From Thermoflexibacter ruber (GTDB lineage Bacteria; Bacteroidota; Bacteroidia; Cytophagales; Thermoflexibacteraceae): 64,000 nucleotides of DNA. Where the stretch lies: assembly GCF_900113045.1 (NCBI RefSeq), contig NZ_FONY01000014.1, positions 1 to 64,000 on the forward strand, in the 5' to 3' direction. Shown here piece by piece: positions 34,345 to 41,964 of the stretch (position 1 is its first letter; the number at the start of each line of letters is the position of its first letter). The position numbers were made by a program, and so were the translations under genes. The notes beneath the pieces were generated by a model. That model saw nothing but the letters and a program-made list of their open reading frames with translations, searched no databases and was not told the origin of the DNA.

Positions 34345-35298
34345 ATGATAGGCAAGGACATAGATTTGGCTATTAAACTATTGAAAGAGGGGCAGTTAGT
34401 AGGTATCCCCACCGAAACTGTATATGGTCTGGCAGGAAATGCGCTTGACGAAAACGCAGTTACTCAAATTTTTAAAGTAAAAAATCGCCCTACTTTTGAC
34501 CCATTGATTGTACATACCAATACTATTGAGAAAGTACATGATTTTGTGTTGGGCATGCCAGAGAAAGCCCATATTTTGGCAAAACATTTTTGGGCAGGCG
34601 CATTGACCTTACTTTTACCCAAAAAAAATATCATTCCCGATTTAGTAACCAGTGGCTCACCTTTGGTAGCTATCCGAATCCCTAACCATGCTTTGACCTT
34701 AGAAGTATTAAGTAGGTTAGATTTCCCACTCGCCGCTCCAAGTGCTAATCCCTTTGGATACATCAGCCCAACTACTGCACAGCACGTAGAAGCACAGTTA
34801 GGCGGTAAAATTTCCTATATTTTGGACGGAGGTAGCTGTCAGTTAGGGTTAGAATCTACTATCGTAGGCTTTGAGCAGGAGCAGGCAATCGTATATAGAA
34901 AAGGAGGCATCAGTATAGAAGCCATAGAGAAAGTCATAGGGAAAGTAGAAGTCAAAGCCCATTCTTCTTCTAATCCGCAAGCACCTGGAATGCTTAAAAG
35001 CCACTATGCGCCTCGTATTCCTCTGATTTTGGGAGAAATAGGTAAACTTATTCCAGAGTATGCAGAGGAAAAAATAGGCATTTTATCTTTTAAAAAATAT
35101 TTTGACGGAATACCTACCAATCAACAGTTTATTCTTTCAGAAAAGGGAGATTTTGGAGAAGCAGCAAAAAATCTATTTGCAGCGATGCGTACCCTTGACC
35201 AGATGGACATTGAGGTTATTTTGGCAGACCTGCTACCTGAACAGGACTTGGGCAGAGCCATTAACGACAGGCTCAGGAGAGCGGCGGCTAAAAGTTAG
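34345..35298 (+). CDS. L-threonylcarbamoyladenylate synthase (Sua5/YwlC type)
   Basis: This 317-residue cytosolic enzyme makes threonylcarbamoyl-AMP for the t6A modification of tRNA. The YrdC domain shows GQLVGIPTETVYGLAG, FKVKNRPTFDPLIVH, VAIRIPNH and PLAAPSANPFGYISPT. A C-terminal Sua5 domain (about 210-317, HYAPRIPLIL) marks it as the long Sua5 form rather than the short TsaC form. Monocistronic. Confidence 0.95.
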   Translation: MIGKDIDLAIKLLKEGQLVGIPTETVYGLAGNALDENAVTQIFKVKNRPTFDPLIVHTNTIEKVHDFVLGMPEKAHILAKHFWAGALTLLLPKKNIIPDLVTSGSPLVAIRIPNHALTLEVLSRLDFPLAAPSANPFGYISPTTAQHVEAQLGGKISYILDGGSCQLGLESTIVGFEQEQAIVYRKGGISIEAIEKVIGKVEVKAHSSSNPQAPGMLKSHYAPRIPLILGEIGKLIPEYAEEKIGILSFKKYFDGIPTNQQFILSEKGDFGEAAKNLFAAMRTLDQMDIEVILADLLPEQDLGRAINDRLRRAAAKS

Positions 35299-35424: not shown

Positions 35425-35961
35425 ATGGAAATTCCAGATTTTACTATTCGCACAGGAAAACAGCAAAGTTTTGTCCAAGAATTAGCCCATCTTTGTCAGC
35501 AATATGCTTCAGAAGAGGACTTTGATTTTGAGGCTTATACAGACGAGCAGGACGAGGCTTCGCTTGTTATCAGTAATTTTTATATCCATACTGACAGGGA
35601 GAGTGCGTTCAACAAAGACTTAAAAAACCTCATCAATCAATTTGCCGTACCCTCTGACCAGCCTGTAGAGTTTGAGGAAATAGAAGCAAAAGACTTTTTT
35701 GAAATTTACGAGTTTTACATTCGTACCGATAAACAGCAGGCGTTTATAGAAAAGTTAGAGCAACTTTGTGATAACTTTGCATATGAATATGATTTTGAGG
35801 AATATATAGATGAGGAAGACGAGCTAATTTTGTACCTTGAGGATTTCTTCATTGCTACTGAAAAGCCACTTGAATTTGTTAATTCATTAGAAAACTTGTG
35901 CAAGGAATTTGCCCTTGACGATGAGTTTGGCTTCGGCTTTGATGCAGAAGAGGAGAAGTAA
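35425..35961 (+). CDS. Acidic protein of four internal ~45-residue repeats, unknown function
   Basis: This 178-residue protein is not recognised. It is almost wholly four tandem repeats starting near residues 3, 47, 92 and 135. Each opens with a strand of the form FTIRTGKQQSF, FYIHTDRESAF, FYIRTDKQQAF or FFIATEKPLEF. A helix of the type ELAHLCQQYA or KLEQLCDNFA follows, then an acidic Phe/Tyr-rich tail with Asp and Glu runs (EDFDFEAYTDEQDE, YDFEEYIDEEDE). No signal peptide or membrane segment is seen, so it is cytosolic. It is very acidic and could be a protein- or DNA-mimicking binder; that is speculation. It is upstream of, and convergent with, the M1 peptidase gene. Confidence 0.8.
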   Translation: MEIPDFTIRTGKQQSFVQELAHLCQQYASEEDFDFEAYTDEQDEASLVISNFYIHTDRESAFNKDLKNLINQFAVPSDQPVEFEEIEAKDFFEIYEFYIRTDKQQAFIEKLEQLCDNFAYEYDFEEYIDEEDELILYLEDFFIATEKPLEFVNSLENLCKEFALDDEFGFGFDAEEEK

Positions 35962-35963
35962 AA

Positions 35964-37610
35964 CTACGTACTTGTATCCTCTATCAAGAAATAGTACAAA
36001 TCTTGCTCGAAGTCCACACTTTGATTTTTATTCAACTTTAACTTGATTTTTTGCCAGTCTTTTTGGGGCTTGAGAGAGGGTAGTTTCTCTTTACTATCAC
36101 TGATTTTTAGTCTAATAGGTAACTCAAAATTAGGCTCTTGGGCTTCTAACTTATAGTGCAGCTCAAGTCTTTTACCCTTTTGCCTTTTGTAAATTTTCAA
36201 AATAGGTGGCTTGGCATATTTCAAATATTGGTTGAGAATAGGTCTGTACTGCTTACCTAATTTGGCACAGAAAAAGTCAATTACCTGTTCTGAGTTTACA
36301 ATAGACAGTTTGAACGTTTGGTGAAAATCGTACAAGGTCTTGAACCAAAGGGCATCATTGGCAAGTAAACTCCTGAGAGTGTGCAACATCCATGCCCCTT
36401 TGTAGTACATATCCGAACCTCTCCAATACCTATAATTAACACCTAAAGGAGCAAGTACAGGGTCTAAGTTTTGGATTTTGTCTTTGAATTTTTTTAAGTA
36501 GGCTACGTATTGGTCGTAACTTCCTGTCAGGCATTCTACAAAAAGAGCATCGGAGTAGGTGGTAAATCCTTCGTGAATCCACATTTCTGCATGGTCGCCT
36601 ACGCTGATGCTGTTGCCGAAGTATTCATGTCCACTTTCATGAACTATGATAAAATCAAAGCCTAACTCATTGTTGATGTAGTTGTTGCCATAGGCGATTG
36701 CCCCTTGGTGTTCCATGCCCCAAAAAGGAGTTTCTACTAAGGCATAGCCGTCTTTCCAGAAAGGATACTTGCCAAATTTTTCCTCATAGCAAGCCAACAT
36801 TTTCTTTACCTGCTGAAAATGTGTTTTTGCTTTTTCTAAGTTATATGCCAAAACATAGTAGTCCAAGGCTAATTTTTCTTTGTCTTTGCTTTCGTAAGTA
36901 TCTTGAAAATGAGCCAATTTGCCTACAACAAAAGTGATATTATAATTGTTGATTGGGTAGCTGACCTTCCACTCGTAGCTATCATAAAGATTATTGACTG
37001 CTTTTTGACTGATTAGATTGCCATTAGCTACACACATCAGCCCTTTGGGAACTTCAAAGTAAAGTCTTATGCTATCAGGCTCATCAGAGAGATGGTCTTT
37101 GTTAGGAAACCAAACGCTTGCACCTAAACCCTCACAACTCACTGCTATCCAGTCATTTCCTTCTTTGTCTTTTGTCCAAGTAAGTCCACCTTCCCAAGGC
37201 GGTCTTCGGGCTATTTGTGGCTTGCCTTGATAGTAAACTTTGATGCTATTAGTAGAGCCTTGCTTTTGTTTTTCAGGAAAATAAACAAAAGTGGCATTTC
37301 CTTCTCTTTTGAATTTCAATAGATTAGAGCCTTGTAAGATGCGGTCAATCTGCAAGTTTTCAAACAAGTCTATCTGCAATACTTGAAAGTCTTGTGATGC
37401 TTTGTAGTGAATTTCATTATAACCCTTGATAGTTTGACTTTCAGGGTGAATTTTTAGGTTCAAGTCATAAAAAGTTACATCGTAGCAGGCTCTCTCAGGA
37501 AATAGCGTACCTCGCAAGGAATCCTGATGAGTAAAGGATAAAGGGTTTTCTTGGGCAAATAAGGATTGACTAAGAAAAGAAAATACTGCAAAAAGTAGAT
37601 AGTAACGCAT
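35964..37610 (-). CDS. M1-family metallopeptidase
   Basis: This 548-residue exported protein has a signal peptide ending QSLFAQ. The zinc site HESGH (residues 324-328) with E347 in HEGFTTY is intact, and the exopeptidase motif is GMEHQGAIAYG (299-309). It lacks the long C-terminal domain of classical aminopeptidase N; such short forms are common in Bacteroidota. It should trim peptides in the periplasm or outside. Its stop lies 3 bp from that of the four-repeat acidic gene, which runs toward it. Confidence 0.9.
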   Translation of the reverse strand: MRYYLLFAVFSFLSQSLFAQENPLSFTHQDSLRGTLFPERACYDVTFYDLNLKIHPESQTIKGYNEIHYKASQDFQVLQIDLFENLQIDRILQGSNLLKFKREGNATFVYFPEKQKQGSTNSIKVYYQGKPQIARRPPWEGGLTWTKDKEGNDWIAVSCEGLGASVWFPNKDHLSDEPDSIRLYFEVPKGLMCVANGNLISQKAVNNLYDSYEWKVSYPINNYNITFVVGKLAHFQDTYESKDKEKLALDYYVLAYNLEKAKTHFQQVKKMLACYEEKFGKYPFWKDGYALVETPFWGMEHQGAIAYGNNYINNELGFDFIIVHESGHEYFGNSISVGDHAEMWIHEGFTTYSDALFVECLTGSYDQYVAYLKKFKDKIQNLDPVLAPLGVNYRYWRGSDMYYKGAWMLHTLRSLLANDALWFKTLYDFHQTFKLSIVNSEQVIDFFCAKLGKQYRPILNQYLKYAKPPILKIYKRQKGKRLELHYKLEAQEPNFELPIRLKISDSKEKLPSLKPQKDWQKIKLKLNKNQSVDFEQDLYYFLIEDTST

Positions 37611-37682: not shown

Positions 37683-39065
37683 TCATTTTTTTATAGGCAT
37701 ATTGGCATGGACTTCTTTTCTCCAATTTATCAATATTTGATGTAGCTCTTTGGTTTTCTTTGGATTGTCTAATGACAAATCTCTTGCTTCTTGTATGTCC
37801 TCTGCTAAGTTAAAAAGTTCTAAGCGATTATTTTCATAGTTTTCTACCAATTTCCAATCTCCCATACGTACTGCCCCTGCTGGTCTTCCCATTTGATTGC
37901 TAAAATGAGGATAATGCCAAAAAATAGCTTCTCTTTGTATGTCTAAGTTAGGATTTTTTAATACAGGCGCAAAACTTTTGGCATCAGGGCTGACTTGGTG
38001 TTTTTCTCCTAATAATTCTAAAAAAGTAGGTAGGTAGTCTGTATTGGTAAAATACTGATTACAAATTTGTTGCGGGGCGATTTGTCCTTGCCAAAAAAAG
38101 ATAGTAGGTACTCTAATCCCTCCTTCGTACAGATGTCCTTTCCATTTCCTAAATGGGTGCGAATCCGTAGGGATAGGCCCCAGTTCAGGAAGTCCTACGC
38201 CTCCGTTATCCGAAGTGAAAACGATAAGCGTATTTTCCAAGAGGTTTTGTTTTTTCAGCTGTGCTATTATTTTCCCCACGCCATCGTCCATGCTTTCTAT
38301 CATAGCGGCATAATTGGGATTGTATTTGCCGCTGTATTTTTCATATTTGAAAAAGTATTTTCTTAGTTTGTCGCCTCTTGGAACGAGCAGTACGTGGGGA
38401 GCAGAGTAAGACAAAAACAGGAAAAAAGGCTTATTTTTCTCTTGTTTTTGGATAAAATCTATGCTATAATCAGTGAGTTTATCAGTGAGGTATGTTGAGC
38501 CATCGTCTTTAAACTCATTTTTATAGCTATCTTCGTAAATTGAGTAATTGTAATAGTCCAATCCATTTCTGCCTATCATGCGGGTATAGTCAAAACCCTG
38601 CCCCCAAGGGGCAAGAGAATCTCCACCGCCCAAATGCCACTTACCTATCATAGCTGTCTGATAGCCTAAGTTTTTCAATCTCTCTGCTAAAGTAATTTCT
38701 GAAGAAGGGAGAAACTTTTGCCATTGGGCAGGCAAAATAGGCGAAAGTGAATCGGTACGCTCACCCACCAGAAAGTTGGTGAGTTGCAAGCGAGCAGGGT
38801 GCTTGCCTGTGAGGATGGCGGCGCGTGAAGGCGAGCAGACAGGGCTTGAGGCATAGGCTTGCGTAAACCTCATGCCTCCTTTGGCGAGGGAATCAATGTG
38901 AGGAGTTTCGTTATAAGGATTGCCGTAACAGCCCAAATCCATGTAGCCCAAATCGTCTGCCATAATGAAAACGATATTGGGTTTGGACTTTTGATTTTGG
39001 CTTTGGGCTTGCAAATGAATGGTAAAGCATAGCAGAAGGAAACAGTATAAGTTTTTCATTGCCAT
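37683..39065 (-). CDS. Exported arylsulfatase (S1 family)
   Basis: This 460-residue enzyme has a signal peptide (about residues 1-21) and a sulfatase alkaline-phosphatase fold. The formylglycine site is PVCSPSRAAILTG with C77, the Cys-type CxPxR motif needed for maturation by FGE or anSME. Metal ligands are in FIMADDLG (residues 34-40), and GKWHLGG and SDNGG follow. It should remove sulfate from glycans. XdhC is encoded 17 bp upstream, so the two are probably co-transcribed. The candidate maturase is the exported FGE at 2995-3801. Confidence 0.94.
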   Translation of the reverse strand: MAMKNLYCFLLLCFTIHLQAQSQNQKSKPNIVFIMADDLGYMDLGCYGNPYNETPHIDSLAKGGMRFTQAYASSPVCSPSRAAILTGKHPARLQLTNFLVGERTDSLSPILPAQWQKFLPSSEITLAERLKNLGYQTAMIGKWHLGGGDSLAPWGQGFDYTRMIGRNGLDYYNYSIYEDSYKNEFKDDGSTYLTDKLTDYSIDFIQKQEKNKPFFLFLSYSAPHVLLVPRGDKLRKYFFKYEKYSGKYNPNYAAMIESMDDGVGKIIAQLKKQNLLENTLIVFTSDNGGVGLPELGPIPTDSHPFRKWKGHLYEGGIRVPTIFFWQGQIAPQQICNQYFTNTDYLPTFLELLGEKHQVSPDAKSFAPVLKNPNLDIQREAIFWHYPHFSNQMGRPAGAVRMGDWKLVENYENNRLELFNLAEDIQEARDLSLDNPKKTKELHQILINWRKEVHANMPIKK

Positions 39066-39082
39066 AGATTTAGTTATGTCTT

Positions 39083-40213
39083 TCAGTTTCTTTCATGGAT
39101 TGTGCCTATTCTTTTTTTCAAAAAGCCTCCCTCGCGCTTAGCAAAATGGGCTTGGATTTCTGCTAAAATTGCTAAGGCTATCTCTTCTGGGGTTTCTGCC
39201 CCAATATCCAGACCAATAGGATTGTGAACTTTGCTTATCTGTTCCTCAGTCATGTTCCCTATCTCCGCCAACATTTTGTCAAATCGCTTGCGAGGTCCTA
39301 ACATTCCGATATAAGATATAGGTTGGTGGATAAGTTGTTTTAAGATAGCTAAGTCAAATTTATAGCTATGAGAAATGAGTATAGCCGCCGTTAATTCTCC
39401 AAAACTAAGCTTTTGTCCAACTTCTTCTCTTGGAATCTCAAGCATTTGGTTGGCATTGGGGAAGCGTTCGGGCTGTAAATTGGCAGTTCGGTCATCTACT
39501 AAAGTTACGTACCAGCCTACTTCGTGGGCTAATTTGACCAAAGGAATAGAATCGTAACCAGGTCCGAATATTATCAAATGGATAGCAGGTTTTAGTACTT
39601 CTAAGAATACTTCCACACTTTTCTTGTCAGAGAGGGAAAAACTCATGCTTTGAGATTTGCCTTCTGACATAACTTGTGGAGCGACTCGCAAAATTTTATC
39701 TGCAAGTTCTTTATTGCGAATAAAATTAAGGGTTTGCTTATCTGCTCGTTGGAATAGCCTTTCGCCGATTTCTACCTCAGCAGTTTCCGAAGCATATACG
39801 GTAGCGATGAGTTCGGTTTCCTGCTCTGTGCGAGGTTTTCCCAAAAAAGATTTTAAGATATGAATGTGGTGCAAGTTATCTTCTTGATTGACAGGTTCTA
39901 TAAGTACATCTATGATGCCATTACACCCCAAACCTACCCCTAAACTGGTGGCGGATTGGTCGTCTGTGGTATCATAACGCACCAGCTTGGGTTTTCCCTC
40001 AGCAATAATTTTCCTTGCTTGCCTCAGCGCATCGCCTTCTAAGCACCCTCCACTAATTGCCCCTGTCCACTGTCCGTCATCTGTCATTATCATACGCGCT
40101 CCTGCTCGCCTATAAGAAGAACCTTGTACACTAACTACTGTTGCTAATGCTGCTTTTCGTTCGCTAAAATTAATTTGGTCGTAAGTTGCTACTATTTTTT
40201 CTAACTCTTTCAT
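39083..40213 (-). CDS. XdhC/CoxI-family molybdenum-enzyme accessory protein
   Basis: This 376-residue protein has the XdhC_CoxI N-terminal domain (SVQGSSYRRAGARMIMTDDGQWTGAISGGCLEGDA) with its conserved Gly-Cys, and a Rossmann C-terminal domain (IFGPGYDSIPLVKLA; then IGMLGPRKR). Such proteins help insert sulfurated molybdenum cofactor into xanthine dehydrogenase-type enzymes. No such enzyme is in the window. It precedes the sulfatase by 17 bp. Confidence 0.92.
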   Translation of the reverse strand: MKELEKIVATYDQINFSERKAALATVVSVQGSSYRRAGARMIMTDDGQWTGAISGGCLEGDALRQARKIIAEGKPKLVRYDTTDDQSATSLGVGLGCNGIIDVLIEPVNQEDNLHHIHILKSFLGKPRTEQETELIATVYASETAEVEIGERLFQRADKQTLNFIRNKELADKILRVAPQVMSEGKSQSMSFSLSDKKSVEVFLEVLKPAIHLIIFGPGYDSIPLVKLAHEVGWYVTLVDDRTANLQPERFPNANQMLEIPREEVGQKLSFGELTAAILISHSYKFDLAILKQLIHQPISYIGMLGPRKRFDKMLAEIGNMTEEQISKVHNPIGLDIGAETPEEIALAILAEIQAHFAKREGGFLKKRIGTIHERN

Positions 40214-40488
40214 AAGTAAGGGTTAAGGTATTGTAATGATAAATAATCAGGTGTATAATATAACTTTTCAAATGCAAATGTAGGTAGGTTGCTTAATCCC
40301 TAAGTAGATATGCTTGTAGGCAAAAATAGAGAAATTTCATCACATAAACATATTACATCATTTTTAAATTCCAAATTATATGATTAAAAAAAGGAAATTT
40401 TTACTTCTTTTAAAGTAAAATTAAGGAGATTTAGAGGAAAAAGAAAGCCAAACAATTATTCATCTTATCTTTAGACAACATTAAATTT

Positions 40489-41964
40489 ATGAAAATGAGA
40501 AACTTATTATTAAAAAATTTAACTTTAGCGATTTACGCTATCGTTTTCACAACTTTATTCTCTGCTTGTAGTGGCTCATCTACTCAGCAAGCAGAACAGA
40601 AGCAAGATAGCCTAAGTACTACACAAACGAGTATGAAAGATTACATCAAAGAGGAAACTAAGGAGGAGAGAGAAGCCCGCATGCAGTGGTGGAAAGATGC
40701 CCGTTTTGGAATGTTTATCCACTGGGGCTTGTATGCCATTCCCGCAGGCGAGCATAAAGGCAAGGTATTAGAAAAAGGGAAAATCGGGGAGTGGATTATG
40801 AACTCCTTGCAAATTCCTGTGGCAGAGTACGAAGAATACGCCAAACAGTTTAACCCTACAAAATACGATGCTAAGGAGTGGGTACGCATCGCCAAAGAAG
40901 CAGGCATGAAGTACATTGTCATTACTTCTAAGCACCATGACGGATTTTCGCTGTGGGATTCTCAAGTGAGCAATTATGACGTTATGGACGCTTCGCCTTA
41001 TAAGAAAGATATTTTGCAAGCCTTAGCTGACGAGTGCAAAGCACAAGGAGTTACTCTGTGTTTTTATCACTCTATCATGGACTGGCACCACCCTGACGCA
41101 CAAGCCCCTCACTATCCAGAGTATAACACAGATAAAAAGCAAAATCCTAATTTTAACAGGTATGTAGAACAGTACATGAAACCTCAGTTGAAAGAGTTAG
41201 TAGAAAAATACGACCCCGCAGTGCTTTGGTTTGATGGGGAATGGATACCAGAGTGGACTGAGCCACAAGGCAAGGAGTTATACAATTTTGTAAGGAACTT
41301 AAAGCCTACTATCATCATCAACAACAGAGTAGGCAAGGGCAGAAAAGGTATGCAAGGAATGAATGAATACGAAGATGCCGCAGGAGATTTTGGTACTCCT
41401 GAGCAGGAAATCCTTTCTGGGAAATCCAATGGATTGCCTTGGGAATCTTGTATGACAATGAACGATACTTGGGGATACAGAAAAGATGATAATAACTGGA
41501 AATCTGCTGAGATGTTGGTGCATAACTTGGCTGATATTGCTGCCAAAGGAGGAAATTACTTGCTCAATGTGGGTCCAACAGCAGAAGGAGAGATTCCAAA
41601 GCCAAGTGTAGAACGCCTTGCTGAGATGGGTAAGTGGTTGCAAGTCAATGGAGAAGCGATTTATGCTACGAAAAGTTTGAATAATTTTAAAGAAGGAGAA
41701 ACTATCCGATATACCCAAAGTGCAGACGGGCAGTATGTTTATGCTATTTCTTTGAAATGGGTAGGCAACCAACTCAACCTTAAAAATATCACGCCCAAAG
41801 AAGGCTCAGAAATAAAGATGTTAGGAGTGGACACACCTTTGAAATGGACGTATGATGCTACAAAAGGCTTGACCATAGAAATTCCTAAAGATTTGCAAGC
41901 CGAAGCCAAAAGACCTTGCAAGTATGCCTATACTTTTAAAATAGAAGGAACTGAAAAGCAGTAG
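40489..41964 (+). CDS. Alpha-L-fucosidase, GH29, lipoprotein
   Basis: This 491-residue enzyme has a lipoprotein signal ending LFSACSG (C27). The GH29 fold shows RFGMFIHWGLYA, YIVITSKHHDGFSLWDS, and the nucleophile D249 in VLWFDGEW. A C-terminal beta domain follows. It would release L-fucose from glycans at the cell surface. It is divergent from xdhC and convergent with pckA. Confidence 0.95.
   Translation: MKMRNLLLKNLTLAIYAIVFTTLFSACSGSSTQQAEQKQDSLSTTQTSMKDYIKEETKEEREARMQWWKDARFGMFIHWGLYAIPAGEHKGKVLEKGKIGEWIMNSLQIPVAEYEEYAKQFNPTKYDAKEWVRIAKEAGMKYIVITSKHHDGFSLWDSQVSNYDVMDASPYKKDILQALADECKAQGVTLCFYHSIMDWHHPDAQAPHYPEYNTDKKQNPNFNRYVEQYMKPQLKELVEKYDPAVLWFDGEWIPEWTEPQGKELYNFVRNLKPTIIINNRVGKGRKGMQGMNEYEDAAGDFGTPEQEILSGKSNGLPWESCMTMNDTWGYRKDDNNWKSAEMLVHNLADIAAKGGNYLLNVGPTAEGEIPKPSVERLAEMGKWLQVNGEAIYATKSLNNFKEGETIRYTQSADGQYVYAISLKWVGNQLNLKNITPKEGSEIKMLGVDTPLKWTYDATKGLTIEIPKDLQAEAKRPCKYAYTFKIEGTEKQ

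Follow-up and report, generated by a model that had tools for sequence, protein, structure and literature searches.

What is a strongly acidic, repetitive protein with no recognisable relatives in the protein family libraries, and where did it come from? The question is raised by an open reading frame (ORF) of Thermoflexibacter ruber that lies in a stretch of 64,000 nucleotides (positions 1 to 64,000 of contig NZ_FONY01000014.1), referred to here as the window. The ORF, its predicted domains and its neighbours are as follows.

35425..35961, + strand: complete ORF, ATG start, 178 codons and a stop; two acidic domains in tandem, standing alone
35425..35694, + strand: domain 1, residues 1-90; half-units 1-42 and 44-88 (half-unit profile); matched by family profile A3
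35695..35958, + strand: domain 2, residues 91-178; half-units 89-131 and 133-177; predicted beta-alpha-beta-beta-alpha-beta
34345..35298, + strand: Sua5/YrdC threonylcarbamoyl-AMP synthase, upstream neighbour; context not conserved
35964..37610, - strand: M1-family peptidase, convergent downstream neighbour; context not conserved

A conserved gene for four acidic units

The 178-aa protein contains 49 Asp and Glu against 12 Lys and Arg (pI 4.05), and no signal peptide is apparent on reading its sequence. It consists of four homologous units of about 44 residues, each running strand-helix-strand and carrying an acidic turn. The scores for all six pairs of units (53-116) exceeded every one of the 1000 shuffles made for each pair (shuffle means 21-28, maxima 42-64), and a half-unit profile, whose training set included the window protein, recovered four units at 48.7-64.7 bits. 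The preliminary description of this DNA, made from the letters alone, had proposed a strongly acidic protein of four internal repeats that matches no known family, and each of these points is confirmed. Pfam and NCBIfam gave no match above cutoff, the best PDB sequence match had an E value of 0.11, PHROGs gave matches at E 0.04 or worse only, and PADLOC, run on four proteins including that of the window, gave none at E <= 0.1; none of the five libraries thus tied the unit clearly to a characterised domain. Pfam resemblances to families such as DUF5008, Pol_alpha_B_N and DUF695 stayed under the cutoff wherever a score was available and were scattered among family members; they were rejected.

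A search of 39 genomes recovered orthologues in both other genomes of the genus (about 56-57% identity) and more distant copies outside it. Scanning named genome contigs, a method limited to close relatives, recovered a Cytophagales MAG (L001) with 54% identity in the best segment, which is probably one of these two genus genomes. Among the genus orthologues pN was 0.17-0.27 vs. a pS of 0.79-0.88, with synonymous sites saturated. Given these orthologues and rates, ORF 35425-35961 is a real gene, and with pN far below pS, the lone gene is under purifying selection. Across a 19-row family alignment, columns 6, 38, 42, 46, 47 and 73 are 89-100% Asp or Glu, and the invariant positions of the domain are four Leu and one Glu.

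Predicted pairing of the units

Structure prediction, suggested as a check in the preliminary description, gave a confident model for a unit pair and a poor one for the whole protein. The second pair of the window protein, modelled with a four-row alignment that included the first pair and both pairs of L001, adopted a beta-alpha-beta-beta-alpha-beta fold (mean pLDDT 90, pTM 0.81) with elements E2-10, H14-28, E29-38, E45-55, H58-72 and E80-86. According to this model the structural unit is two repeats that close into one compact domain and, because the units pair in this way, the window protein probably comprises two tandem ferredoxin-like domains. Family profile A3, which includes the window protein, matched at 35425-35691 (domain 1, E 3.8e-32) and 35698-35958 (domain 2, E 2.2e-28). 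The full-length model (two-row alignment; pLDDT 70.1, pTM 0.47) does not confidently place the packing of the two domains.

The first half of the 19-row alignment matched the second in hhalign (98.6% probability, 33% identity), indicating by sequence comparison that the internal repeat is a half-domain duplication found across the family, and that a further step doubled it to two domains.

The domain as a C-terminal appendage of C1A peptidases

A two-unit domain profile matched 17 of 390 sampled genomes of the order, or 16 after G046 was dropped (E 7.2e-4, profile positions 12-66 only, within a long frame that reads like a DNA primase). The domain was found in 5/13 genomes in a family-level search, and draws from the class and from the phylum each gave 2/395, both times G000 and G021 only. 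It was not found in phages, plasmids or viral contigs (the last searched with one pattern). Confinement of the domain to the order therefore appears likely, though not proven, since the class and phylum draws are samples. Weak matches in the 39-genome search (E above 0.003) were set aside, except that in G021, which was later confirmed by profile. Two of them were rejected individually: L011, by reading a UDP-glucose dehydrogenase, for which Pfam and NCBIfam show a like weak resemblance, and L003, an unrelated frame. The remainder were not recovered at E <= 0.001 in the family and order profile searches.

Twelve of the 16 genomes carry the domain as a C-terminal appendage on a C1A peptidase, in proteins of about 364-490 aa with the peptidase first and no visible signal peptide. 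Eleven of these carry one domain (two half-units) and the G009 protein carries two (four half-units). Two fused proteins run on Pfam matched PF00112 (E 1.7e-16 and 3.6e-11); the window protein gave no PF00112 match at E <= 10, the catalytic domain being absent. Stand-alone proteins with four half-units are present in all three genomes of the window's genus, one of which (G001) is 62% complete, and G005, from the sister genus to which G009 also belongs, encodes stand-alone proteins of 179 and 100 aa with two half-units each. G005 also has a 52-aa ORF (L047:1504-1662, - strand), 68 nt downstream of an AIPR-family gene, whose residues 24-52 match the helix and following strand of one half-unit (33.0 bits with a profile that excluded it). 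The homology of the window protein with the peptidase tail, and this architecture, are well supported.

Apart from the 52-aa ORF with its partial single unit, the unit number was two or four in all 17 proteins read. The suggestion in the preliminary description that the repeat count may vary between strains is borne out at the level of species and genera, one genome per species having been compared. The closure of the modelled pair into one compact domain and the unit counts of two or four in the 17 proteins speak against a solenoid, in which equal units stack open-endedly in varying number, though the whole-chain model is poor.

A profile of the peptidase catalytic part matched PDB entry 3ois ('Cysteine protease', E 4.6e-47), which we take to be xylellain. 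At 1e-30 this profile matched 25/390 genomes of the order, 12 with the domain and 13 without. Among 35 matching loci, 30 were examined for catalytic motifs by script and 26 were parsed (12 with the domain, 14 without). A Q..C motif could be read in all 26 and the His pattern in 25, the exception being L078. The C-terminal parts in this wider group differ in kind: the present domain, a helical-looking part, or simple acidic tails. Across the 26 parsed peptidases their net charge is -32 to -154, and that of the catalytic parts -31 to +9. The catalytic part is itself acidic in the 12 domain-bearing peptidases (net -4 to -25), so that in these proteins the appendage does not stand out by its acidity. 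L086, the weakest clade member and not among the 26, ends 44 residues past NSW without an acidic tail.

Several of these C-terminal parts were also read individually. L074, L077 and L078 (families f14 and f1) have a helical-looking acidic part in place of the domain, and L078, from the window's own family, was the only one of three such proteins scanned to match TerB, below cutoff (E 0.0034). L082, L083, L085 and L087-L091 have tails rich in Asp and Glu (net -116 to -154), with short repeats in some.

Genomic context, the missing enzyme and a proposed order of events

The neighbours of the gene are not conserved. The genus orthologues sit behind CTP synthase, unlike the window gene with its Sua5 and M1 peptidase neighbours. 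The homologues with other repeat numbers that the preliminary description had proposed to look for, together with their neighbours, could be compared at 16 loci (4.9-21 kb), where no gene family besides the domain recurred beyond close relatives, bar a few general ones (short-chain dehydrogenase-like and ABC-transporter-like genes, named by reading). A sigma-70 and terminator scan found nothing beyond chance, and the sigma-70 promoter type may not apply in this host.

Two regions were noted in passing. Sulfatase, XdhC/CoxI-family and alpha-L-fucosidase genes at 37683-41964 of the window read like a carbohydrate-use region. The 100-aa copy of G005 (L031, G005:C34:223000-241000) lies among genes that were read as MNT/HEPN- and PIN-like toxin-antitoxin pairs and as a transposase, and beside a gene resembling a NucS-like nuclease in a Pfam match below cutoff; these surroundings are possibly a defence island.

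The peptidase profile had no match at 1e-30 in G000, G001 and G002, of the window's genus, or in G005. At 0.01 these four genomes gave partial C1A matches only (E 2.1e-12 or weaker). The three in G000 have signal or lipoprotein starts by reading, are distantly related and are missed by the domain profile. G001 is incomplete, as stated above, and with domain-bearing peptidases alone behind the profile, a very divergent peptidase could be missed.

A module tree (midpoint root; moderate support, with 4/16 inner branches strongly supported) separates families f10 and f22 from f1, and fused forms occur in each of the two parts (G009 in f1). This distribution favours fusion first, and we infer that the stand-alone form came later. 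G005a keeps an acidic linker like that preceding the domain in the peptidases. Its N-terminus scored above shuffles with the G009 peptidase prologue (shuffle fraction 0.0014) and did not with three others (0.12, 0.22 and 0.61), which is at most suggestive of a prologue remnant.

A bolder reading of the same family, which we regard as a long shot, is that it has kept a half-domain series: the 52-aa ORF with one half, two-half domains and four-half tandems, the latter two with and without a peptidase, could record a ferredoxin-like fold built stepwise from beta-alpha-beta halves. The first strand of the 52-aa ORF was assigned by reading, and this ORF may be decayed scrap. If the reading is true, a single half might pair with itself as a symmetric homodimer, and the family would offer a present-day model both for a ferredoxin fold arising by half-domain fusion and for an enzyme appendage becoming a free protein.

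A proposed binding role and its alternatives

With acidity taken as a shared property of the C-terminal parts, we propose that their common use may be binding of a basic partner or self-association. The domain would thus be a protein-binding one, with the acidic face as its putative binding face. In our preferred reading, which we give about an even chance, a peptidase-tail domain became detached from its enzyme and was kept as a cytosolic acidic binding module. The ORF would encode two tandem acidic domains, predicted to be ferredoxin-like, that elsewhere form the C-terminal appendage of xylellain-type C1A peptidases. In the peptidase, the domain would bind through its acidic hairpin and tail, the target being a basic client protein or its own copy; the stand-alone protein, an adaptor, decoy or holdase, would go on binding but no longer cut. 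These data neither establish nor refute the binding or mimic role raised in the preliminary description, and the homology to the peptidase tail is the best clue to origin.

Comparison of the modelled pair with known structures brings in a different role. Foldseek listed many ferredoxin-like folds, none at E <= 0.001, with a PII-like protein at the top (E 0.005); BFVD gave nothing at E <= 0.001. The best 50 rows from VIA-align included ACT-type regulatory domains, NikR, ribosomal S6 and designed folds (Z 7.3-9.5), the ACT-type and NikR chains superposing at Z 8-9.5 and 1.9-2.7 Å over 74-79 residues with 4-15% identity. On this basis the protein could be an ACT/PII-like small-molecule sensor, in which a metabolite or metal held between the tandem domains would give rise to an allosteric signal; in the peptidase, the domain would switch the enzyme. 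The high-ranking regulatory neighbours (PurU, the putative glycine cleavage repressor 1u8s, the metal-binding domain of NikR, and SerB2) and the PII-like Foldseek match fit such a sensor, and the acidic clusters could hold a metal. Against it, a ribosomal S6 permutant (Z 8.7) and a designed protein (Z 9.1) score on par with the ACT-type chains, no ACT family appears among the seven Pfam matches of the window protein at E <= 10 or among the 25 families listed for 19 members at E <= 1 (a capped list, from which matches of a single member may be missing), and the invariant four Leu and one Glu suggest no obvious pocket. We consider the sensor a real rival, although an unlikely one. Because the scores of the structural neighbours lie close together, we claim topology alone and, because this topology is very common, function is not shown by the fold.

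The domain could instead be a scaffold, through which single-domain peptidases dimerise and which in the tandems (the window protein and G009) forms the same dimer within one chain, leaving the lone protein as an oligomerisation module. According to a published study, ferredoxin-like domains form barrels through dimerisation or through duplication and fusion (PMC4835899), and the presence of one or two whole domains per chain in the 17 proteins, the 52-aa ORF apart, is in keeping with this. The two-domain model is not confident, however, and the selection acting on the stand-alone gene points to a role that goes further than holding an absent enzyme; we judge such a scaffold quite improbable.

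Homology to part of C1A peptidases also allows that the lone protein acts in trans like a freed propeptide, inhibiting or docking onto a papain-like peptidase of the host, of a phage or of a competitor, and related C1A peptidase domains are indeed present in eight phage records. This regulator is also improbable: searches of the genus did not turn up the cognate peptidase, the three C1A enzymes of G000 are only distant relatives and, by reading, look secreted, and the gene has no such peptidase alongside, its M1 neighbour not being conserved. That the gene is a non-functional remnant of a peptidase gene, as the missing catalytic domain and unconserved neighbours might suggest, is hardly credible with the frame open in 3/3 genus genomes and pN far below pS.

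A detached acidic binding module thus remains our preferred account. The domain is kept where the enzyme was not found, and the detached form gives a simple handle on what acidic appendages bind.

Comparison with known systems

The domain family outlined here is above cutoff in none of the libraries used and is tied to a bacterial papain-like peptidase group. A literature search found no description of the domain; the xylellain-type peptidase was already known. A published survey states that the multidomain members of this peptidase group were not analysed in detail there (PMC10380794).

Three known groups come closest. Antibiotic biosynthesis monooxygenases (ABM, PF03992) share the same general fold and, across roughly half the domain, a weak resemblance in profile. 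PF03992 matched 3/19 members at E <= 1 (best E 0.00044). The scores seen were 13.7-20.7 bits, the best of them below the cutoff of 23.1.

ACT-type domains (PurU, 1u8s, the C-terminal domain of NikR, and SerB2) resemble the window domain in predicted topology and size. PurU and 1u8s are presumably ACT proteins, and the title of one SerB2 structure entry names ACT. Membership is not supported by sequence (no ACT family among the matches listed; 4-15% identity): the beta-alpha-beta-beta-alpha-beta fold is present as a prediction, and Z values of 8-9.5 are not well above those of unrelated folds.

The xylellain-type C1A peptidases (3ois; PF00112) share the domain of the window protein, which is their C-terminal part in 12 genomes of the order. 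The catalytic domain is theirs, whereas the window protein consists of two copies of the appendage only. What appears to be new is the stand-alone occurrence of this appendage, predicted to be ferredoxin-like.
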